Source: Bacillota bacterium
Lineage (GTDB): Bacteria > Bacillota > Sulfobacillia > JABLXB01
Direction: 5' to 3'
Assembly (NCBI GenBank): GCA_013178305.1
Contig: JABLXB010000002.1
Location: 372,001 to 436,000 of the forward strand
Length of the DNA: 64,000 nt
Shown here: piece after piece, positions 7,024-17,676 of the stretch
Layout: the number at the start of each line of letters is the position of its first letter
Numbering within the stretch: the first letter of the stretch is position 1
The notes under the pieces: model-generated
The model's input: only the letters and a program-made list of their open reading frames with translations
Databases searched by the model: none
Told to the model about the DNA's origin: nothing
Translations under genes and position numbers: made by a program

Positions 7024-7332
7024 CTAGCAGCACCCCTTTGAACCGGAGCAGCCACACCCGGGTCCGCCGCAATCCGGCTCTCCGCCGGTTAGCAGGCCAC
7101 GGATGATGGCCACAGCGCAGCCGACTCCCGACTTCACCGTGATAGCGCCGGCCGGGCAGTTCCGCGAGCACGCGCCGCACTCCATACAGTCATCCTTGCA
7201 GATAACTCTTGCTGTGGTGCCCTCCATCTCGAGCACTCGATGGGGGCACACCGATACACACATCCCGCAGCCCGTGCACAGGTCGCGGTCCAGCTCGAGA
7301 GTCGCGACGTCCTTCAAGTACTGCAACGTCAT
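7024..7332 (-). CDS. hgcB: HgcB, ferredoxin of mercury methylation
   Basis: A 102-residue ferredoxin with two 4Fe-4S motifs (CTGCGMCVSVCP and CMECGACSRNCP) and a Cys-rich tail ending in a vicinal CC. The two-cluster fold plus the terminal Cys pair is diagnostic for HgcB, which reduces the corrinoid of HgcA and binds Hg(II) for methyl transfer. It starts 18 nt after the hgcA stop, the usual gene order. ATG at 7332 was preferred; the frame is open to a TTG at 7344, which would sit on the AGGAGAGG ribosome binding site. Confidence 0.9.
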   Translation of the reverse strand: MTLQYLKDVATLELDRDLCTGCGMCVSVCPHRVLEMEGTTARVICKDDCMECGACSRNCPAGAITVKSGVGCAVAIIRGLLTGGEPDCGGPGCGCSGSKGCC

Positions 7333-7350
7333 GACACGCACCAACCTCTC

Positions 7351-8430
7351 CTAGAGCAGGAACCAAAATGCCAGGCCGGCCACAACCGAACACGCCAGCG
7401 TGGGGAGGGCTATCCTCATCTCCCGCTTCACCCCCGAGAACGAGGTGACCGGCGTGGCCCCCGTGAAATTCAGGGCAATGTATGCGGAGGCCGCGGGCCA
7501 TATCAGCAGAGTCGCCGCTACGGTCCCTGCGCCGGTCGCGCCGTGCCGGGTCACCCAGGTCGCGCAGAGTCCAGCCGACACCAGCAGGCCCGCAATCCAG
7601 CCTTTCAGCGAGAACGCCCGTCCAGGTATCCACGGCAGCGCGATAGGTACCGCAACCGAACCGGCCACGACCGCGCTCGCAGCGGCCAGCATGAGGTCCC
7701 TTATGCCCGGCCTGAAAGCACCGGCGGGGACATGCCCGCCGCCGAACCGCCTCATGATGAAGGCCAGGAGCACGCCAGCGGCGAGTACCGTCCACGACCC
7801 CAACAGCTCAACCGGGACAAGCACGAGTCGGTCGAGGAAGCCGAACCGTACGCGCCGCATCCCGGGGTCAGCCTTCATGTCCCGTTCGAGGAATCTTCCC
7901 AGGTCGGCTGCACGCACCGGGCCGTACACCACTTCAAAGCCCGATCGTCGCCGGACTTCGTGAGCCGCGACGCCAGGAGCCCCGAGTTGAGGCAGGATGA
8001 TAGTCCTGTGGTCTACGACCTCCGGCAGCCGTACTGCTGCCAGGCGCCGGACCACCTCTGCGGTCCCGAATGTTCCCTTCCCCGCAGCGCACCAGACGTT
8101 TATGCCGTATGTATCCAGTACCACGACCCAGGTGTCCCTACCGTCAATCTGCCGACGGAGCAGGTCGAACGTCATCTTGTAGTTAGCAGTGATCACCACG
8201 GGGGACGACCGCCCGGGCGAGCCGACTGCGTAAAGCCCAGGCGGAACGCGGTAGGTGAACCTACCGATCCCGAGGCGAACGCCCACCATGCCGAGCGTGT
8301 CCTCGAGCGACAGCCTTGTTGAGACACGGGGCACAAGCCCCGCCCCTGACTCCACCCATCCGGTGATCCATTCGGGGTCGCGCTTCCCGGGGTTCTCCCG
8401 CCTATCCTGGCAGCTCGGCTGCCTACTCAT
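7351..8430 (-). CDS. hgcA: HgcA, corrinoid methyltransferase of mercury methylation
   Basis: A 359-residue membrane protein that transfers a methyl group from its cobamide to Hg(II). The N-terminal corrinoid domain carries the invariant cap-helix motif NVWCAAGK (residues 111-118, Cys114 being the expected lower cobalt ligand). The C-terminal half has about five transmembrane helices, and FTGATPVTSFSGV is the conserved segment before the last helix. Length, topology and the adjacent hgcB fit the family. An ATG with GGAGGT 6 nt upstream fixes the start. The source of the methyl group (folate/CFeSP route) is not in this window. Confidence 0.95.
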   Translation of the reverse strand: MSRQPSCQDRRENPGKRDPEWITGWVESGAGLVPRVSTRLSLEDTLGMVGVRLGIGRFTYRVPPGLYAVGSPGRSSPVVITANYKMTFDLLRRQIDGRDTWVVVLDTYGINVWCAAGKGTFGTAEVVRRLAAVRLPEVVDHRTIILPQLGAPGVAAHEVRRRSGFEVVYGPVRAADLGRFLERDMKADPGMRRVRFGFLDRLVLVPVELLGSWTVLAAGVLLAFIMRRFGGGHVPAGAFRPGIRDLMLAAASAVVAGSVAVPIALPWIPGRAFSLKGWIAGLLVSAGLCATWVTRHGATGAGTVAATLLIWPAASAYIALNFTGATPVTSFSGVKREMRIALPTLACSVVAGLAFWFLL

Positions 8431-8986: not shown

Positions 8987-9223
8987 ATGCCAGAAGCCGG
9001 TTCAAAGCGAGTGACGTTCCACGTGCCCGGCATGTCGTGTTCACACTGCCGGACCGCCATCTCCAAAGTCCTCGGGGAATCCAGGGGAGTTATAAAGGCC
9101 GACGTGGATCTGCCCGCCAAAACGGTGATTGTCGACTACGACCCGGAACGCGCAAGCCTGGACGATCTGAAGCGGGTGCTTACGCAGGCGGGATATACGC
9201 CGCAGGGGGGTTCGCAAGGGTAA
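8987..9223 (+). CDS. heavy-metal-associated (HMA) domain protein, CopZ/MerP-like
   Basis: A 78-residue single HMA domain with the metal-binding motif GMSCSHC and the usual beta-alpha-beta-beta-alpha-beta pattern (KADVDLPAKTVIVDYDPE, LKRVLTQAGYTPQ). Such proteins carry Cu(I) or, in MerP, Hg(II). No signal peptide, so cytosolic like CopZ. GGAGGGG lies 5 nt before the ATG. It lies about 560 bp from hgcA on the opposite strand; a role in delivering mercury is possible but not shown. Confidence 0.85.
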   Translation: MPEAGSKRVTFHVPGMSCSHCRTAISKVLGESRGVIKADVDLPAKTVIVDYDPERASLDDLKRVLTQAGYTPQGGSQG

Positions 9224-9332: not shown

Positions 9333-9404
9333 TTATGGTGGCCCCAACGGGAATCGAACCCGTGTTACCGCCTTGAAAGAGCGGTGTCTTGACCTCTTGA
9401 CCAT
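9333..9404. repeat. attachment-site copy (distal end)
   Basis: 72 bp identical to 17599-17670, covering the CCA end through the D-arm of tRNA-Glu. The bases beyond (TTCCCCTG instead of GGGGCCAC) destroy the acceptor stem, so this copy cannot give a tRNA. It marks the far end of the integrated element. Confidence 0.92.
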
Positions 9405-9491
9405 TCCCCTGTTAAAACTGCGTTTCTGGCCCCATTCCCTCGCCAGGGTAACCGCTTTTCATTTTGAGCCTTATTTACTGCTCCTTCGCCG

Positions 9492-10505
9492 TCACTGGTC
9501 AGAATCCTGCTCAGGTTGGGAGGTTTTTGAAGGAGCGGCCTTCGTACGGATAACGCCTACCGGCGTACGACGGCCCTGTCTTTGTCTTCGCTTTTTCTCT
9601 CTCTGACGGCACCTTTCGGAGCAAAACTTCTCCCGAGGTGGCAGTACTAAGTTGCCGCAATCGGCTGCTGAACACCTGGTTACGTTGAGGTATCCCAATT
9701 CCTGAAAGAACCATTGTAGGAACGCCGCGAGGATAGCACCACTGGCTCCGAACACCCAAGTGTACAGCGGGAATCTTGGGTCATCCTCGCGGCTAAGCAT
9801 CGGAATGAGAACAAACACCGGCAGTACTCTCGACACACAATCCACAATCGCCTCCCAGGTGTCTCTGAGAAGCTGATCGTCATTCTGAGGTCCCATCCAG
9901 ATGGTTTCATACGCCGCTGTGCCCCCGCGTCCGGTCTTCTTGCGGAATATGGGCGGCCACGGCAGGTAGCGAACGTACGGCCAAGAGCCATCCCCGACAA
10001 GATAGACCGCACTGAGTTCTTCCTTGATGACCATTGCCTTTTCGAAGGGCCGATCCCCCGCGTTGTTCCTGCCCTGGCGGAAGAGGTCCCAGAGCGGCCC
10101 CACTTTGCCGTTCTTGACCCATTCGACCATCAGAGTTAACCCGCGAAACCAGTCAAGCCATTTCATGCATACTCCCCATGACTCGGAGACCGGCTTGCAC
10201 GGATTGACCCCGGGCATTGTCTCGTTCCGTCCCCACCCGAGGCATGGTCCGTGCGGCAGAAGATGACCGTATTTCCCATAGAAGTCCTCAATCTGTCTCC
10301 AATCGTTTTTCTCAAAGGCGAAGTATAGCTGTCGCACTGTTCTCCAGAAGCGAGGGTCGGTTTCGGTCGGATTGAACATGCCACGCAGGTTGTCTTCGAT
10401 GCACCGTATCCACCGTTCGCCCCTTTCGTCCTGCGTCAGGGCAACCTTGACCCAGGGAATGCTCGCATAAGCAGTCTCGGCGGCTATCGTCTCCAGTCTG
10501 TGCAT
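9492..10505 (-). CDS. unknown protein with C-terminal zinc-finger motif
   Basis: A 337-residue protein. The C-terminal region RCSAADCGNLVLPPREKFC followed by SERCRQREKKRRQRQGRR carries a C-x4-C...C-x3-C metal site and a basic tail, resembling CGNR-type zinc fingers and suggesting nucleic-acid binding. The rest has many Trp and aromatic residues and one hydrophobic stretch (VFGASGAILAAFLQWFFQ); no enzyme motif recognised. It is the only leftward gene at this end of the element, divergent from the XRE gene, with its own sigma-A promoter. Candidate accessory or defence gene, by position only. Confidence 0.75.
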   Translation of the reverse strand: MHRLETIAAETAYASIPWVKVALTQDERGERWIRCIEDNLRGMFNPTETDPRFWRTVRQLYFAFEKNDWRQIEDFYGKYGHLLPHGPCLGWGRNETMPGVNPCKPVSESWGVCMKWLDWFRGLTLMVEWVKNGKVGPLWDLFRQGRNNAGDRPFEKAMVIKEELSAVYLVGDGSWPYVRYLPWPPIFRKKTGRGGTAAYETIWMGPQNDDQLLRDTWEAIVDCVSRVLPVFVLIPMLSREDDPRFPLYTWVFGASGAILAAFLQWFFQELGYLNVTRCSAADCGNLVLPPREKFCSERCRQREKKRRQRQGRRTPVGVIRTKAAPSKTSQPEQDSDQ

Positions 10506-10535
10506 CTGTGTCCCCCCTAAGTCCCCCCTTCCTAT

Positions 10536-10565
10536 ATTATAGACACAGAATCCTGCTCAGGTCAA
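10536..10565 (-). promoter_or_regulatory. sigma-A promoter of the Zn-finger gene
   Basis: TTGACC and TATAAT are separated by 18 bp on the minus strand, about 30 bp before the ATG at 10505. The site lies between this gene and the divergent XRE regulator, a natural place for XRE control. Confidence 0.65.
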
Positions 10566-10583
10566 TCAGAAGGGGTGTGAAGC

Positions 10584-10799
10584 ATGGTTACGCAGGTCGC
10601 ATTGCTTCGGTTCAAGACGGGCGTAACTGCTCGTGAATTCGCCAAGGCTGTCGGAATCCCAGAGGTTACCATGTACCGCATTGAGCGGGGAAGGCAGTAC
10701 GTCCCTCCAAAATGGCGTCGTCCCCTGGCGGAGGCTCTAGGGGTCTCCGAGGAGGAAATCTGCGACCCCAAGACGGGCTGGCCCAGGTTGGTGGCTTAG
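10584..10799 (+). CDS. XRE-family HTH regulator
   Basis: A 71-residue protein almost entirely composed of a Cro/CI-type helix-turn-helix (VTAREFAKAVGIPEVTMYRI, then LAEALGVSEEEICDP). The ATG follows an AGAAGGGG site. It is divergent from the Zn-finger gene and precedes the replication genes of the element, as expected for a repressor of the element. Confidence 0.85.
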   Translation: MVTQVALLRFKTGVTAREFAKAVGIPEVTMYRIERGRQYVPPKWRRPLAEALGVSEEEICDPKTGWPRLVA

Positions 10800-10893
10800 C
10801 CCAACGGCAATGGAATAACCCTCTCGACGTGGCGACGGCCGAAGGGAGGGACAATCCCAATGCAGCGTTACCCGAAGGAGGCGATCATTTCGA

Positions 10894-11070
10894 TTGACCC
10901 CTGAAGCGAAGGCTCGACGGCGGGCGAACGCCAGGCGAGGAAAGAGCGAGCGGCGTCTTTTACGTGAAGCCCGAGCCGTCCTCCTCAAAGAAGCAGAAGC
11001 GAGGCGAGCGGAAGGCGTTATCGACGCCGTGATCTGGGGGGTGATTCGCAACCTGAGAGATGCAATCTGA
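10894..11070 (+). CDS. small basic protein (putative)
   Basis: A 58-codon frame starting TTG, very rich in Arg, Ala and Glu (EAKARRRANARRGKSERR), ending before a gap of about 130 bp. An AGGAGG site lies 12 nt upstream, and a 14-codon frame beginning at an ATG at 10860 ends over its start. The composition suggests a nucleic-acid-binding helix, but without homology it could be a chance frame. Confidence 0.4.
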   Translation: MTPEAKARRRANARRGKSERRLLREARAVLLKEAEARRAEGVIDAVIWGVIRNLRDAI

Positions 11071-11200
11071 CTTCGCTTGACACGTCCTCAACTGAGTCCC
11101 ACTAGTCCCACGCGGGTGCTAAGACAACCCGCATTTTTGTTCCCCAAAAAACAACCGGGCCGGGGTGCGAACCCGGCCCAATTCATTGGAGGCATAGCCT

Positions 11201-11569
11201 ATGTCAAAGGGTATTCCGATCAAAGCTCCCGTCAACGGTCTCTGGCGTGTTTGCGGGACCCTCTGCCCAGGGAACCCGCCAGTCTTCGTTCAGCGTATCA
11301 AGCCCCAGGACGTTCTGCGGATACGGGGAGCCGCAGGGGTTGACCTGGCTTACGACCCACCGCTACCGCCAAACACGATCCTCCGCCACGAAATCATGGG
11401 ACAGGATACCTACGAAATCCCGCTAGCCGTCCTGCTGAACCACTTGAAGGCCGAACGCCTGCAAGTCGGCCCCAAGCACCCCCGCCGGATTTACCTCGCC
11501 TACAAGTACTGGCGGAACGTCATGCGAGAATCGGCCCAACTGCCGCTCTTCGGCGGTGAGGCTGTATGA
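11201..11569 (+). CDS. unknown protein coupled to the primase-like gene
   Basis: A 122-residue protein with a TTGGAGG site upstream. Its stop overlaps the next gene's start (ATGA), so the two are translated together. No family recognised; the C-terminal end SAQLPLFGGEAV contains QLPLF, which fits the QLxLF pattern of a beta-clamp-binding peptide (inference). A replication accessory role is plausible from position. Confidence 0.7.
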   Translation: MSKGIPIKAPVNGLWRVCGTLCPGNPPVFVQRIKPQDVLRIRGAAGVDLAYDPPLPPNTILRHEIMGQDTYEIPLAVLLNHLKAERLQVGPKHPRRIYLAYKYWRNVMRESAQLPLFGGEAV

Positions 11570-13329
11570 GTCTTGCGGTCAGCGTACTCGAACCGGCCCG
11601 GGCAACCGTCCCGGGCCGCAGTACTTGGTGGTCCCCCGCCAGGGTCGCCATCCACGAAGGCCACTGGAAAACCGTCCACTACCCGAAGTATACCGCAGTG
11701 GTCAGGAAAGGTCAAACGCTGGCTGTTTCCCCGGTCGGGATTGACGGCATGGCTCACTTCGTGGCCTTCGACATAGATAGCGGCGATGAGGGAGACGTTC
11801 AGGCCGTCCTGAAGGCGTTACCTCAAGGGACGGTCCCCCTCGTGAGTCATTCCGGGAAGAAGGGGTGGCATGTCTGGCTGTTCCCCTCCGCTCCCATCCC
11901 TGTAAAGACCGCCCTAGCGTTCGGAAGGTGGGTCCTCGAAAGGTCTGCTGTCTCCTGCGAGGTGTTTCCCACGGGGAAGAACAGTCGCTGCCTCAAGTGG
12001 CCCGGGAGCCCCCATCCTGAGACGAAGAAGCCGGAGGTATTCGTCCCTATCGAGAACGTGGCCGGCACACCGGACACTGACGCCACCCTTCAGGCCCTGG
12101 CGGATGGGCTTTACAGAACCCCCGCCGACCTGTTCGAGCGAAGGCAGTCATGCTCACGGCAGGATAGGGGGTTCCCCGAAGGGGTCTCATATACCCATAT
12201 GGGGTATAATGATCCAATCGCTGAGAACAACACAAGAACAGCGACCGCAAAAGGGAGGAGCCTCGCCATGCTGCCTGAGCTGGCCTTCGGGCTTGCTGAA
12301 CTTGCAGGAAGGCGGGTGACGAAGATGGGCAAGCCCTTCCGGTGCATCCTCCCAGGCCACGAGGAACGCAAACCTTCGGCAGAGTTTTACGTGGGAGACA
12401 ACGGCACAGTCGTTTACCATGATTGGCACGCTTCAAAGCACGGCACGCCTGAGTTTCTAACCCTTGGGGAAATGTATCACGCTATTGCAACGGGAAGGAT
12501 AGCCAAACTGAGACCTGTCGATTCTGCAAGGTGGCTCGCTAGGCTCGCCCTACGCCTCGGCATACACAACGAGCAAACAAAACAAGTCCGCTCCTCACTT
12601 GATCGCCTATCTCAGATCTTACTCCAATCATCAGTATTATCTTCACCAGTTGGTTGTAAAACGAGAGGGGCAGATGTGTCCATGGCGAAAGGCGAAATAA
12701 TTTCGTCTTTCGTCCTCTTACCGCCACCAGCCCTGCCAGAGGAGAAGAACCGCGGCAAGGGTAATGAATTGACAAGAGTGTGGCAGGCGTTTTGCGATGA
12801 AGCGATGGTTTCGGCAATGAACGGATTCAACGAGGTGAAGCTGTCTAAGCGGTTCCTGGCTCGAATTGCTGATGTGCCGGACGACGTTGCTAACAGGGCG
12901 ATGAATCTCCTGTCCGTTCTCGGCGTTTTGGAGAAGGCCCCTGGCAGCGGAGGCGAACGCGGGGACAGGTTCGTGCTGGGTGACCCTTCCGCTCGGAAAT
13001 CATTTCCGTTCTTTTCCGAAGAGGTCCAAAGGCGTTGGGAGGCGTTGGGCAAACCTTCCTTGAGGCAGTTCAAGAAGACCCTCGTGGAGGAACGCCTGGG
13101 TCCGGAGATAGCCAACGCAGTCTTCAGACGGTCCCAAAAGGAGAACGAATTACCTTCGGCTGCAGAGAAGACGGTCCAAGTCACGGACGAGGCATCAGTC
13201 ATCCGGGACAATGGCTCCACAAAGCCCTACAATGCCCCAGGAGACGTTTTCTTGGGCGAAGAGTACCTGAGATATGGACAAGCGTCACAAGCCGTCTCCT
13301 GGGGCTTCCTAGAAGGTTCTGCCTGCTAG
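11566..13329 (+). CDS. primase-like replication protein of the element
   Basis: A 587-residue protein. Residues about 60-175 look like an archaeo-eukaryotic-type primase core: FVAFDID (acidic metal ligands), SHSGKKGWHVWLFP (conserved His region) and CEVFPTGKN...LKWPGSPHP. Around residues 240-310, FRCILPGHEERKPSAEFY and VYHDWHASKHG resemble a CHC2-like zinc module that presents template. The C-terminal third (SAMNGFNEVKLSKRFLARIA) may be a winged helix. It probably starts replication of the excised element; catalytic activity is inferred from motifs. Confidence 0.75.
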   Translation: MSLAVSVLEPARATVPGRSTWWSPARVAIHEGHWKTVHYPKYTAVVRKGQTLAVSPVGIDGMAHFVAFDIDSGDEGDVQAVLKALPQGTVPLVSHSGKKGWHVWLFPSAPIPVKTALAFGRWVLERSAVSCEVFPTGKNSRCLKWPGSPHPETKKPEVFVPIENVAGTPDTDATLQALADGLYRTPADLFERRQSCSRQDRGFPEGVSYTHMGYNDPIAENNTRTATAKGRSLAMLPELAFGLAELAGRRVTKMGKPFRCILPGHEERKPSAEFYVGDNGTVVYHDWHASKHGTPEFLTLGEMYHAIATGRIAKLRPVDSARWLARLALRLGIHNEQTKQVRSSLDRLSQILLQSSVLSSPVGCKTRGADVSMAKGEIISSFVLLPPPALPEEKNRGKGNELTRVWQAFCDEAMVSAMNGFNEVKLSKRFLARIADVPDDVANRAMNLLSVLGVLEKAPGSGGERGDRFVLGDPSARKSFPFFSEEVQRRWEALGKPSLRQFKKTLVEERLGPEIANAVFRRSQKENELPSAAEKTVQVTDEASVIRDNGSTKPYNAPGDVFLGEEYLRYGQASQAVSWGFLEGSAC

Positions 13330-13398
13330 AATGCGGTCAAAATGCGGTAGCATGTGCGTGCTCACGACAACATGTGAGCCAGAAAGGGGTGTCCTTTG

Positions 13399-13680
13399 GT
13401 GGGTAGAGCAGGGAGCACGTTCATTCAGTGGGACGATTACGAGGGGCATGTTTACCTCCAGACCACGAGCGGCAAACTCGTCGAAACCCTCACTGCCGTG
13501 GGGGTTGTGTGGGAAGCGAAGGACGATGCGGGAACCTACTCCTACAGGATACCCACTGCCTGGCTCAGGCTCAGGATACCCAGGGGGGGTATACTGAAAT
13601 TCGGGTGGTACCCCACGAAGAAGCAGAAGGGGGTGCTCGCTATCATGGAAGAGCGGCCCAAACTAGTCGTGGTCAAGTAA
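13399..13680 (+). CDS. unknown small protein of the element
   Basis: A 93-residue, beta-rich protein (GSTFIQWDDYEGHVYLQTT, then PRGGILKFGWYPTKKQKG). GTG start with GAAAGGGG upstream; the frame also opens at TTG one codon earlier. It ends 24 nt before the next likely start. No family recognised. Confidence 0.6.
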   Translation: MGRAGSTFIQWDDYEGHVYLQTTSGKLVETLTAVGVVWEAKDDAGTYSYRIPTAWLRLRIPRGGILKFGWYPTKKQKGVLAIMEERPKLVVVK

Positions 13681-13703
13681 GTTCCTCGGAGAAGTTCGCG
13701 TAC

Positions 13704-14045
13704 ATGATCGGGAAGCTGTACGAGGAGAGAAAGCGGGACAAAGAGGACAATTTGAGGCAGAACAGAGAGCCGAACCATCAAAATGATGCTTCGGGGAATA
13801 CCTCCGAAGCCATTGCCGAAGAATACAAAGTCGGCAAGGCCACTGTTGAACGTGCTGCCAGCACTCATCAGTTTGCCGGAGCCGTGATCAAGAAAGAACT
13901 GGCTCGCCTGATGTATGTGTCTAAGCCGGGATTAGAGACTGCAGTAAGCCTGCTAAAGTATGCTCCAGATTTCGTGGTCTTCTTTGAAGAGAGTAAGCCA
14001 GGGGGCTTCTTTACCAGATACCTAAACGCAGTGGACCGACCTTGA
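13704..14045 (+). CDS. ParB/KorB-like DNA-binding protein
   Basis: About 113 residues. A basic, Asn/Gln-rich stretch (RQNREPNHQNDASGNTSEAI) leads into the helix-turn-helix AEEYKVGKATVERAAS, the arrangement seen in ParB-like proteins of plasmids, phages and integrative elements. ATG at 13704 was chosen; the frame is open upstream but overlaps the previous gene out of frame. The C-terminal part differs from usual relatives, so partner specificity is unknown. Confidence 0.6.
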   Translation: MIGKLYEERKRDKEDNLRQNREPNHQNDASGNTSEAIAEEYKVGKATVERAASTHQFAGAVIKKELARLMYVSKPGLETAVSLLKYAPDFVVFFEESKPGGFFTRYLNAVDRP

Positions 14046-14095
14046 GTTGTCGATAGCGAGAATGCCATGCCTGCGATAACCGGGAGGGATGTTCG

Positions 14096-14674
14096 GTGTC
14101 CTATTTCTTGGTTGCCGGCCAACCTGTGTTCCTCTCAACCAGTCGGTACGGAGCTCTTCTCACCGAAGCTTTATCGGATGAGACTTCCAAGAATCGCGTC
14201 CGTGCTTCTATCGCAGGAACTGCAGAGCACCGCCGATCTGTGCTTCGCATGCAAAACCTCCTCAAATCGAAATACAGTACAGACCCAGTGCGTTTTTACA
14301 GTGAATGGGTGGATTTCGACTTTGCGGATGCTGAGGCTCGTGATAACGTCTCTGACCTACTGTACGACTACTGCGACTTACACGGATGCGGGCGGCTGAT
14401 AGACTTCCGGGATTCTACCCAACGGTTACTAGACGCTTACGAATGCGAAAACCTTTCGTATCCGTTCGGAATGGTCTTCGGCTTGGAGTTCGACGTTGGG
14501 CTGAGACCGCTATGGCTGCGAACGTTCCTTAGGAGCAAGAATCTAAGAGTCATTATTGCAACCCAGCTGGTCAGTCGTCTCAAAGGCACTCTCAGTGACT
14601 TTACCATGTACTCTCTCTGCACAACCATTCGTTTCAACAGCAACGGTGTTGTTCTCCAGCCGTCTAACCTGTAA
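14096..14674 (+). CDS. unknown protein, possible cargo gene
   Basis: A 192-residue protein with GTG start behind GGGAGG. Composition is less GC-biased than the chromosome. No domain recognised: FYSEWVDFDFADAEARDNV, then LLYDYCDLHGCGRLIDFRD, are notable acidic/aromatic segments. It is last in the rightward gene series of the element, a position often used for cargo such as defence genes. Confidence 0.6.
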   Translation: MSYFLVAGQPVFLSTSRYGALLTEALSDETSKNRVRASIAGTAEHRRSVLRMQNLLKSKYSTDPVRFYSEWVDFDFADAEARDNVSDLLYDYCDLHGCGRLIDFRDSTQRLLDAYECENLSYPFGMVFGLEFDVGLRPLWLRTFLRSKNLRVIIATQLVSRLKGTLSDFTMYSLCTTIRFNSNGVVLQPSNL

Positions 14675-15391
14675 TCGCGGTTGTATTTGACAAATTCGTG
14701 TTGTTAACCGAGGTTTCATTGTCTCGGTACTTGAGCTTGTGCATCGACGGGAAGCCAGTCCACGGTCGCTAGCAGAAGCATGGTGGTTTTCTCACCTCTT
14801 CCGAAAGGCTACTGCAGTCAAAGAATTCCACTGGGCCACAAGTAAAGGTGAGCAGGCTGCAGTCGATCACGTCGCAGGTGTCCGTAAAACGGAGACAAAC
14901 GGGACCGATAAAACGGACGAAAAGCGATTCTCGTTGCTAACAAGGCGAAAACAACGGCGTCCAGCGGATGTCCGCGTGGATGGCGGGCGTACGTCCGATA
15001 TTGAGAACAGACCGAAAACACTAGTCCTGAGAACAGGGAAGAACAGGAAACCCGCCTGAACGGTTCGCCTCGAAACCGGATAGCGGCGGCCGCACAAAGA
15101 TACCGGCATATTTCACAGAAGACAGCCTCAAATGTAATTGCGGACATTAGTAAAAACGGCAGACTTGCCGAAATTACTATCCTGTAGAATGTCCCAGGAC
15201 GGACGTTTCGAGGGCGGGTAAGGGTGTAGGTATCCCCCGGCCCCTGGAGGGCTTCCATCAGTATAGGGTTAAGGAAATGTTTCCTGAAGCCATAAAGGGC
15301 CAAAAAAGAACGGAAATGATTTCCCTTCTTTATGCTGAGAAGATCGGCTTAGTACGGGAGGCGGTCAAGTCTTTGGCACGCTGGCCCCTGG
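14675..15391. other. non-coding stretch of the element, possible origin or control region
   Basis: No reading frame here looks protein-coding. The sequence after 14880 is purine-rich with recurring AAAACGGA/GGACGAAAA-type words and an ACCGAG...CTCGGT hairpin near 14708. Such content could be an origin or transfer region, but I find no clear iteron set. Confidence 0.35.
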
Positions 15392-15489
15392 GTTTCAATC
15401 CACGCCCCCGCACGGGGGGCGACCGGATATCGTGCTCGAACTCAGCCGCCGCAATTGGTTTCAATCCACGCCCCCCTGCGGGGGCGAAC
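15392..15489. CRISPR. two-repeat CRISPR-like array, type I-C-like repeats, no cas genes
   Basis: Two 32-nt units (15392-15423 and 15458-15489) both begin GTTTCAATCCACGCCCCC and close with the complementary GGGGGCG, flanking one 34-nt spacer. The repeat length, the palindrome and the GTTTCAATCCACGC edge match type I-C repeats (read on the minus strand, ending GTGGATTGAAAC). The two hairpins keep a 7-bp stem but differ in the loop, and the unit at 15458 is degenerate at its outer end. No cas gene lies in the window. Confidence 0.6.
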
Positions 15490-15513
15490 CCTGTGGTAAT
15501 GTTGCCACAGGGT
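15488..15513. terminator. hairpin abutting the CRISPR-like repeat
   Basis: ACCCTGTGG / CCACAGGGT form a perfect 9-bp stem around an 8-nt loop directly after the second repeat. There is no T-tract, so it may be a structural RNA element rather than a terminator. Confidence 0.4.
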
Positions 15514-15873
15514 GAAGCGGGCAAGACGTGCGATGTTGAGCACCTGGACAAGGGGCAAACCACTATGCCCCGGGGACGTAAAATCGCGGCAGCGTTGCTC
15601 CTTGAGACCGTAGGTAGGTCTCGCGTGAGCTGCCGCGAATTGAAGTGACTTCTTGTCTACGCCCGATTCTCACTATATGCGATTGATAGGCTGAGCAGGG
15701 GGGGGACGTGCGTTCTTGACAGAAAGTTCCCCTGAGACCGTGGGCAGGGTTTGCTTTCGTAAAATTCTCTTTTTCGCCCAACTCGTTCCCGCAAACCCAT
15801 AACGAGGCAAGAGAGGAGGCGGATCGCCTGCTCGCCGACGCTGCCCGCCTCCGTGACCGCCACAGTCTTTGAT
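15514..15873. other. no supported gene
   Basis: Intergenic sequence of the element. A few words recur (CTTGAGACCGT near 15601, CTGAGACCGTGGGCAGG near 15733) but I see no coding frame and no complete hairpin terminator. Confidence 0.35.
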
Positions 15874-16176
15874 TCAGGCGTCTTCAACCTTGATAGCAGG
15901 GAACGCCTCCTCGAACGGGACTTCCTTTTCGGGCAGCTGCTCGTAAAGGAGCACTGCGTCGTCCAGGGAGAGGGGTTCCAGGCGGTCCCTCTCCCCTTCC
16001 CAGCAAGTGCGATACTGGGCGAAGTAGTTCCCACTCGGGGTGCGGTAGAGGAACGTGTTCCTGCCGTGCCTCTCCCAGTTGTGCCCGTCCCAGTAGGCGT
16101 TTGAAGCAATGAGGGTCGCCGTCTCCGTGGAATACCTCTTCCGACCGATTACCGCAGTCATCTCCGCAGGTTTCAT
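15874..16176 (-). CDS. unknown small protein of the element
   Basis: A 100-residue protein starting at an ATG with CGGAGG upstream. IGRKRYSTETATLIASNAYW followed by NTFLYRTPSGNYFAQY suggests a compact alpha/beta fold of a kind seen in other Firmicute mobile elements, but I cannot name a family. The frame continues upstream without coding character. Confidence 0.6.
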   Translation of the reverse strand: MKPAEMTAVIGRKRYSTETATLIASNAYWDGHNWERHGRNTFLYRTPSGNYFAQYRTCWEGERDRLEPLSLDDAVLLYEQLPEKEVPFEEAFPAIKVEDA

Positions 16177-16237
16177 GATGCATGCCTCCGGGGACTGTGC
16201 CCCAATCTGGCGGTCCGGTCCATGCCGGCCGCCGTTC

Positions 16238-16438
16238 TCACCGCATTTTCGACAGGCACCCCACCGATACCAACGCCTCCCGCAGGTGGTAGTGAGCGTC
16301 ATCAAGGTGCTTTGCCGCAACGTTCTTGACCGGATAGTCCTCGGGCCGGAGCCCGTTCAAGAGACCTATCGCCTGCACGATGAGCCGCAGGGCCTCGGGG
16401 TCTTGCGACCTGCGTTCTGCGTTCGCCGCTTCACACAT
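16238..16438 (-). CDS. small helical protein coupled to the integrase
   Basis: A 66-residue, mostly helical protein whose ATG overlaps the integrase stop (ATGTGA) and has GGTGAGGAG just upstream. The position after int and the size would suit an excisionase or regulator, but no helix-turn-helix is evident. Confidence 0.55.
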   Translation of the reverse strand: MCEAANAERRSQDPEALRLIVQAIGLLNGLRPEDYPVKNVAAKHLDDAHYHLREALVSVGCLSKMR

Positions 16439-17387
16439 CGCTCCTCACCTTCCTGACGCGGTTTCTCCTGGGAAGCAGCGTGTTGAGCGGGGAAGCGATG
16501 GCGTGCTGCTCGCGGAGGTCCTGCTGGGTAAGTGCGACGTAGCGTTTCGTCATGGTCATGCTTGCGTGCCCGAGGGTCTTTTGCAGTGAGAAGGCATTGC
16601 CCCCATTTCGCAAGAACATCAAGGCGAACGAGTGCCGGAGGTCGTAGGGGCGGACCTTCACTCCGGCGGCCTTGCTGTAAAGCTGGAGCCTCCTGTCCCA
16701 GGCGTTGTGAGTCATGAACCGCCCATCCTCGGTGCAGAACACCGGTATCCTTTCGTCCCAGGACGGGTGTCTCGCCGCAATGAGCTTCTTCACCGCCTCA
16801 GCAGTCACAAGGGAGATCGGCAGGGTCCTGGACACCCTGGTCTTCGCCGCCTCCCTGGGAACGGTCGCCTCCAATCCGCGGAGGTTGAAGTGGTGGATTT
16901 TGAGGCTGCAAGCCTCCTTTGGGCGGATTCCAGTGTCCAGGGCGAGCAGGAGAAGGGCGTAGTCACGCAGGCCGGTGAACGTTGCCCTGTCGGGAACGGA
17001 AAGGAGCCGTCTCAGTGCGTCCTCGCCGGCGGCCCTCGGCGTTTCGCCCTCCCTCCTACGCTTGACCCCGTGAATCGGGTCGGCGGGAAGATAGCCTTCC
17101 GAGACGCACCACGAGAAGAATGTCTTCAGCACCTGGAGCCTTTTGTTGTAAGTCGATGGGGCCAGGGAAGAGCTTTTGGCGAGGTATTCGAGCACGGCCC
17201 TGCGGAAGCACTCGTAGTCCTCGGTCCCGGCAATCCCCGCGGCCTTCAGGAATAGCCCAGTGTGGTAGCGTAGGTCCTCAAGGGTCCTCTCCGCCAGCCC
17301 CTGCGAACGCTTGAACAGGAGAAAGCCCTCCGCCACCTCTTCCCATGCCAGTGAGCGTTTCGGCGAGACCCTCACCAAACGGCCCAT
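16431..17387 (-). CDS. int: tyrosine recombinase / site-specific integrase
   Basis: A 318-residue phage-type integrase. The N-terminal SAM-like core-binding domain covers about residues 15-110; the catalytic domain shows Arg in TGIRPKEA, H-x-x-R in YDLRHSFALMF, His in LGHASMTMT and the Tyr nucleophile in KRYVALT. It lies about 210 bp from the tRNA-Glu attachment site and points away from it. It catalyses insertion at and excision from the 72-bp repeat. Confidence 0.93.
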   Translation of the reverse strand: MGRLVRVSPKRSLAWEEVAEGFLLFKRSQGLAERTLEDLRYHTGLFLKAAGIAGTEDYECFRRAVLEYLAKSSSLAPSTYNKRLQVLKTFFSWCVSEGYLPADPIHGVKRRREGETPRAAGEDALRRLLSVPDRATFTGLRDYALLLLALDTGIRPKEACSLKIHHFNLRGLEATVPREAAKTRVSRTLPISLVTAEAVKKLIAARHPSWDERIPVFCTEDGRFMTHNAWDRRLQLYSKAAGVKVRPYDLRHSFALMFLRNGGNAFSLQKTLGHASMTMTKRYVALTQQDLREQHAIASPLNTLLPRRNRVRKVRSDV

Positions 17388-17598
17388 AAACAGAACCCCC
17401 CTCGCGGCCCTGGCGAAGGGGGCGGACGAACGATTTCCAGTTGGGGCAACGGGGAGGGTTTTGTGTTACCGCTTTTGCGGTTTTCGATAGGACGGCGTAC
17501 TCAAAACCCCATTCCAAGGACACCGCTCTATCGCTTTTCGGGAGGATTTCCAGGGGCTTTCCGGCAGAGAGGTTACTGCAAAATGCCTGCTACAAATA

Positions 17599-17670
17599 TT
17601 ATGGTGGCCCCAACGGGAATCGAACCCGTGTTACCGCCTTGAAAGAGCGGTGTCTTGACCTCTTGACCAT
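17599..17670. repeat. attachment-site copy inside functional tRNA-Glu
   Basis: 72 bp identical to 9333-9404. Here the following bases (GGGGCC) complete the acceptor stem, so the element restored the tRNA when it inserted. Confidence 0.92.
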
Positions 17671-17676
17671 GGGGCC
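17602..17676 (-). tRNA. tRNA-Glu (UUC)
   Basis: A 75-nt tRNA with encoded CCA. GGCCCCA / TGGGGCC form the acceptor stem; the loop CTTTCAA carries anticodon TTC; the T-arm is ACGGG-TTCGATT-CCCGT. Its 3' part is contributed by the integrated element. Confidence 0.95.

Follow-up and report, generated by a model that had tools for sequence, protein, structure and literature searches.

An 8.3-kb integrative element at a tRNA-Glu gene in a Sulfobacillia genome, with its relatives and a type I-C-like mini-CRISPR

Here we describe an integrative element located at a tRNA-Glu gene of an uncultured Bacillota bacterium of the class Sulfobacillia, within a stretch of 64,000 nucleotides that we refer to as the window (GenBank assembly GCA_013178305.1, contig JABLXB010000002.1, positions 372,001 to 436,000 of the forward strand). 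The element is real and looks intact: a 72-bp duplication from the 3' portion of the tRNA-Glu gene marks its two ends, and it belongs to a small, apparently unnamed family of tRNA-inserted elements. We consider it fairly probable that this small-family element replicates, is carried by a helper, and bears as cargo a minimal array of clustered regularly interspaced short palindromic repeats (mini-CRISPR). Its dependence on a helper is probable by analogy with known satellites.

The original prediction had placed here an 8.3-kb element with ends exact to the base, one repeat copy within a functional tRNA, the other in a copy lacking its 5' end, and a tyrosine integrase beside the tRNA, and each of these points was borne out. 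Extension of the match gave a 72-bp exact direct repeat at 9333-9404 and 17599-17670, with 8,266 bp from start to start, which is the length of the element unit with a single attachment (att) copy. In the 64-kb window, no second direct repeat of 32 bp or more was found besides this pair. The two ends are the following:

9333 to 9404, no strand: attL, the left 72-bp copy, a tRNA-Glu fragment without its 5' end
17599 to 17670, no strand: attR, the right 72-bp copy, within the intact tRNA-Glu(ttc) at 17602-17676 on the minus strand

The intact tRNA-Glu, with anticodon UUC, was called by ARAGORN, which called no tRNA at the left copy; this one is recognized in Rfam as a partial tRNA, covering model positions 7-64 of 71. 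Since that match is partial and the sequence past the left copy is unlike the 5' end of the tRNA, the left copy can be described as 5'-less. The tyrosine integrase lies inside the element and adjoins the att copy in the intact tRNA, the arrangement that defines a tRNA-site integrative element.

The same tRNA locus, as judged from the sequences compared, is shown to be without the element in G001, a genome from the same taxonomic family. There, the order glnA, tRNA-Met, tRNA-Glu is kept, the att site is identical in 69/69 compared bases, and none of eleven element proteins matches in the 4.0 kb past the tRNA-Glu. The finding named beforehand as speaking against a mobile element, a fixed and conserved 8-kb region without repeats, is therefore not what this genome holds, its locus being empty of element proteins. 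The tRNA pair is also present in a second genome (G002), whose contig stops 0.77 kb beyond.

From left to right, the element contains gene A (minus strand), the XRE regulator, open reading frame (ORF) C and the primase (all plus strand), three open frames, the mini-CRISPR, and ORF G, ORF H and the integrase (all four on the minus strand). Ten predicted proteins were scanned against Pfam, PHROGs, PADLOC and NCBIfam with a cut-off of E <= 0.1:

16431 to 17387, minus strand: tyrosine integrase, 318 amino acids (PF00589, 2.5e-28; PHROG integrase, 2e-45), 47-72% identical in relatives
10584 to 10799, plus strand: XRE-type regulator, 71 amino acids (PF13560, 3.9e-11), 47-63% identical in relatives
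11201 to 11569, plus strand: ORF C, 122 amino acids, a conserved core gene that overlaps the primase start and has no Pfam match
11566 to 13329, plus strand: AEP-type primase, 587 amino acids (PF22548, 7.3e-8)
9492 to 10505, minus strand: gene A, 337 amino acids, a variable att-proximal gene with a weak C-terminal treble-clef/CGNR-like zinc finger and a 31% homologue in the relative L032
13396 to 13680, plus strand: open frame E, 94 amino acids (open reading frame list, Pfam scan)
13428 to 14045, plus strand: open frame E2, 205 amino acids as listed, its true start probably near 13704 (open reading frame list, Pfam scan)
14096 to 14674, plus strand: open frame F, 192 amino acids (open reading frame list, Pfam scan)
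15874 to 16320, minus strand: ORF G, 148 amino acids, conserved in the relatives L012 (69%) and L013 (63%)
16238 to 16438, minus strand: ORF H, 66 amino acids (open reading frame list, Pfam scan)

The expected replication genes are thus present in the form of the primase, and the XRE regulator lies inside the element as well. Likewise, the expectation that transfer and capsid genes would be missing agrees with the scan, where no relaxase, conjugation, capsid, portal or terminase family was matched by any of the ten proteins; nor was there any Cas match among them, apart from weak PrimPol rows. Residues D69, D71 and H102 of the primase, which we take to be the catalytic positions of AEP primases, are invariant across three aligned homologues, and PDB entries 7nqd and 7nqf, presumably CRISPR-associated prim-pols, have sequences that are hit at 1e-5 by a profile built from three primases. 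ORF C shows 51-56% identity in an alignment of four, and its predicted fold, with a predicted local distance difference test (pLDDT) score of 81, has no clear match in the PDB (best E 0.59). For gene A, the Pfam matches to DUF2116 (0.0011) and zf-CGNR (0.038) do not reach the curated cut-offs, the best match among three gene A homologues is zf-CGNR at 2.2e-6, and the predicted fold is unusable (pLDDT 45).

Related elements were searched for with a primase profile over 154 genomes of the class (E <= 0.001), which matched in 11 of them. The N- and C-terminal parts of the primase were both matched in four genomes, namely the window's own (G000), G011, G053 and G062, whereas the matches in the other seven (G005, G018, G068, G074, G075, G078 and G099) are partial and were not counted as members. 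Three further copies with both ends, each with a homologous integrase, sit in three different tRNA-Leu genes. The first of them, L032 in G062, occupies tRNA-Leu(taa), where exact repeats of 80 bp enclose 5.6 kb, and keeps the gene order, with identities to the window element of 52% for the integrase, 47% for XRE, 57% for ORF C, 43% for the primase and 31% for gene A. The second, L013 in G011, comprises 6.45 kb at tRNA-Leu(gag) between 73-bp repeat copies that are 92% alike and exact over 60 bp, and shares with the window element XRE, primase and gene order besides the integrase; its primase frame is broken, and a HicA/HicB pair occupies the place of the cargo. The proposed search of other genomes for the integrase-primase-XRE set was therefore successful, with L032 and L013 carrying all three in the same order. 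The third, L046 in G464, is a 6.47-kb element at tRNA-Leu(tag) with an integrase 53% and an ORF C 32% identical, where a Prim-Pol plus an AAA protein replaces the primase.

A tRNA-Glu element split between contigs is suggested by G053: one contig holds a gene A homologue, XRE, ORF C, primase and part of G, with a tRNA-Glu fragment past gene A, while on another an intact tRNA-Glu adjoins an integrase of 72% identity, and these two parts may well be one element. ORF C was matched in 5 of 398 sampled genomes of the phylum. XRE and ORF C are found on two contigs of G310, with a primase match on both (one of them cut by the contig end) and no integrase on the contig stretches examined; G163 and G333, with weak ORF C and weak integrase matches, were not counted as members. 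A candidate in G075 (L034) was also set aside, its 77-bp tRNA-Lys repeats being 14 kb apart and its integrase 28% identical; this stretch (L034:1-14096, G075:C50), bounded by two complete tRNA-Lys(ctt) copies that are exact over 77 bp, looks like a larger tRNA-inserted element. As seen from the comparison of its members, the integrase is constant in the family, XRE and ORF C are retained in most cases, and the replication and cargo genes are swapped. The original prediction had called the element not obviously of a known family, which holds for the families tested but overlooked the existence of these relatives. Beyond the genomes, no relative of the primase was found in 50,697 phage records or 72,556 plasmid records, and candidate stretches from IMG/VR yielded no confirmed relative by primase (0 of 18) or by ORF C (0 of 29).

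The place of gene A appears to be variable in these elements, and a short motif may mark it as a site of cargo exchange:

9499 to 9515, plus strand: 17-bp motif at the 3' end of gene A, with a second copy (one mismatch) at 10545-10561, on the opposite side of the gene

The proposal comes from two examples. In L013, two copies of the motif (2 and 3 mismatches) near the left end flank the hicAB pair, located where gene A sits in the window element; L012 has one copy near its left end (2 mismatches), and L032 has no clear copy. In the host genome, a 16-mer of the motif is confined to the two sites at <= 1 mismatch. Regarding replication origins, two DnaA boxes were found in L012 and none in the window, L013 or L032, which gives no grounds for proposing an origin common to these elements. 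On the 3' side of the primase, short tandem repeats are readily seen in L032 and L012 but not in the window.

Between the open frames and ORF G, the original prediction overlooked a one-spacer array, consisting on the minus strand (15489-15392) of a repeat, a 34-nt spacer and a second repeat:

15458 to 15489, minus strand: first repeat of the mini-CRISPR in transcription order, hairpin intact
15424 to 15457, minus strand: 34-nt spacer, no target found
15392 to 15423, minus strand: second repeat, sharing 30/32 bases with two real arrays of the class

The single spacer between CRISPR repeats and the absence of cas genes nearby are the features that define mini-arrays. Even though the two repeats differ from each other in 6/32 bases, each folds into a hairpin of 7 bp, after which the next 11 bases are identical, and they match the array repeat of genome G093 in 28/32 and 30/32 bases, against a maximum of 21 elsewhere in the window. 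The repeat period of 66 bp falls inside the 63-68 bp range of the two real arrays of the class, one of which, in G012, follows an operon with a Cas7 match that we assume to be a type I-C cas operon. The mini-CRISPR is type I-C-like. Directly before the first repeat, on the leader side, a fold of 15385-15520 includes a 9-bp perfect inverted repeat at 15490-15513, a candidate terminator or leader element. The 14-base repeat end, GCGTGGATTGAAAC, is present in 12/154 genomes of the class, mostly as one copy. Single copies were seen in G013, G068, G074, G114, G130, G135 and G040; some may be solitary repeat units and others chance occurrences.

The host seems unable to use this mini-CRISPR. The Cas7 family of types I-B and I-C (PF05107) has no match in the host, while both controls, G012 and G093, were matched; the host genome has no other copy of the repeat end at <= 1 mismatch and no matching array. 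The only Cas1 match of the host adjoins an array with a different, 36-base repeat. This locus (L017; G000:C9:85000-104000) comprises 66 exact 36-base repeats, a large cas operon and a Cas4-Cas1 fusion, and from its gene content we take it to be type I-G. None of its 65 spacers aligns to the element without gaps at fewer than 12/37 mismatches, and targeting of the element by the host was therefore discarded. The 31 and 22 spacers from the two arrays of the class that share the repeat end of the mini-CRISPR were also compared with six element sequences and set aside, with 10/33 mismatches at best. As to the target of the spacer itself, IMG/VR gave no exact match, nor any match with every third position allowed to vary, in each of three registers; phages and plasmids gave weak partial matches at best (E 1 and 3), and in the 154 class genomes the spacer matched only itself at <= 3 mismatches.

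From these data, the following mode of action can be proposed. The integrase would join the circular 8,266-bp form to the tRNA-Glu, leaving the tRNA whole, and would reverse this reaction with an additional factor, a chemistry suggested by the integrase family and the structure of the att sites. The XRE protein would silence the element and, after its release, the primase and ORF C would copy the circle. The element would then be carried to new cells by a helper, which is most probably a phage, as in the case of the phage-inducible chromosomal minimalist islands (PICMI). The mini-CRISPR would travel as cargo: where a host has type I-C Cas proteins, the array transcript would be processed to a single guide RNA directed at a competitor, whereas in the present host the array appears to be idle. 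In its widest form, this would be an unnamed minimal satellite family inserted at tRNA genes in more than one class, with modules swapped around a fixed integrase and a guide active only in type I-C hosts, where it would exclude a rival element; we hold this extension to be doubtful.

Several points weigh against the element being a helper-carried replicon with a guide as cargo. Its excision, circular form, replication and transfer are all deduced from sequence. The left flank of the window is not conserved in G001 or G002, and the G001 locus thus falls short of a perfect pre-insertion allele. In the element, no excision factor, origin or packaging signal was recognized, DnaA boxes being found only in L012. 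The portal family PF04860 had no match in 3/5 hosts searched. The host of the window has one portal gene, on the same contig as the window; it belongs to a prophage region about 110 kb to the left (L073/L074; G000:C2:242000-281999), which we presume to be Mu-like. The 13-mers common to the element and this region number 24, against 18 in a control stretch, and the sharing of a packaging signal is thus not above the control. Finally, the spacer matched no target, in a host without Cas7 of the I-B/I-C family.

Part of this evidence would also fit an integrated cryptic plasmid that integrates, excises and copies itself, and moves by chance through transformation or generalized transduction, with no dedicated helper. 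The integrase, regulator and primase are present, no packaging or mobilization gene was recognized, and the replication protein is swapped between relatives, all of which this explanation would accommodate; however, the primase is unmatched among the plasmid records, and the occurrence of such elements across several families and at least two classes suggests regular transfer, which makes a cryptic plasmid rather unlikely. Regular transfer could also be achieved by conjugative mobilization, if the element carried only an origin of transfer and borrowed a relaxase. Integrative elements without a relaxase are a recognized class (PMC11389934), but the ten proteins have no relaxase or conjugation match, an origin of transfer not having been searched for, and we regard this possibility as quite unlikely. 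A decayed prophage remnant would explain the phage-like integrase and regulator, and is nevertheless highly improbable, given that relatives of 5.6-6.5 kb keep a complete core and clean att ends, that no structural phage gene was matched, and that the primase has no relative among the phage records.

The mini-CRISPR admits its own alternatives. It might be a decoy, an RNA anti-CRISPR that ties up type I-C Cas proteins instead of guiding them against a rival. RNA anti-CRISPRs mimicking repeats exist, and a type I-C one is among those tested (PMC10651486). The failure to find a target in IMG/VR, phages, plasmids or the class genomes would agree with a decoy, whereas the two repeats at array spacing, the standard length of the spacer, the exclusion of mini-arrays from the survey of such decoys (PMC10651486) and the lack of an I-B/I-C Cas7 match in the present host argue against it, and we find it somewhat unlikely. 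A functionless relic acquired by recombination deserves appreciable, though less than even, weight: a matching Cas7 was not found in the host, a simple sigma-70 scan found no promoter-like site, and L012, L013 and L032 are without such a repeat. Against a relic stands the hairpin, kept in both repeats despite their differing bases.

In the neighborhood of the element, about 0.9 kb to its left, an hgcA and hgcB mercury-methylation pair is encoded at 7024-8430 on the minus strand (NCBIfam HgcA 421 bits, cut-off 275; HgcB 117 bits, cut-off 99), followed by a heavy-metal-binding CopZ/MerP-like protein at 8987-9223. This left flank with hgcAB was not found beside the tRNA-Glu in G001.

Small hitch-hiking elements without recognizable transfer genes are easily missed, and this family offers a signature for searches, consisting of the integrase clade, ORF C and, in most members, an AEP primase, which the phage, plasmid and IMG/VR collections searched do not contain. 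Moreover, with a mini-CRISPR carried in a host without the matching Cas7, a laboratory type I-C system could be used to test a form of "borrowed immunity" between mobile elements.

Among known systems, the mini-CRISPR resembles the virus-borne mini-CRISPR arrays described in PMC6858448, which have 1-2 spacers and no cas genes and reside on a mobile element. The arrays covered there match host repeats and target relatives, whereas for the element no matching host array and no target were found. It also resembles the RNA anti-CRISPRs (Racrs), repeat-like hairpins on mobile elements without cas, with a type I-C case on record; in PMC10651486, however, Racrs are solitary repeats, while the element has two repeats with a period of 66 bp and a spacer between them.

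The element as a whole shares with PICI and P4-like satellites the combination of integrase, regulator and primase in a small island. In those satellites, this set stands in a small chromosomal island together with a small terminase (TerS), a capsid-redirecting gene or AlpA, none of which was matched in the element proteins at the same cut-off (E <= 0.1). Tycheposons insert at tRNA genes. They are likened to the element by description, in being small, in having a tyrosine recombinase and in exchanging cargo at such sites, and they belong to a different host group. All three are named in PMC11389934. The closest likeness is that to PICMI, islands of about 6 kb that, as presented in PMC10803314, are small, carry an integrase, a regulator and a primase, lie between direct repeats at a single site in the chromosome, and have no capsid or packaging genes. 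Whereas PICMI have AlpA, a DUF3987/DUF5906 primase and a site beside fis (PMC10803314), the element has an XRE regulator, a primase of AEP-TOTE-like type and an insertion site in a tRNA gene, and the Pfam scan of its ten proteins gave no match to AlpA or DUF3987/DUF5906 at E <= 0.1. A minimal phage satellite such as PICMI would nonetheless be the nearest working model for this element, with its dependence on a helper proposed by analogy.

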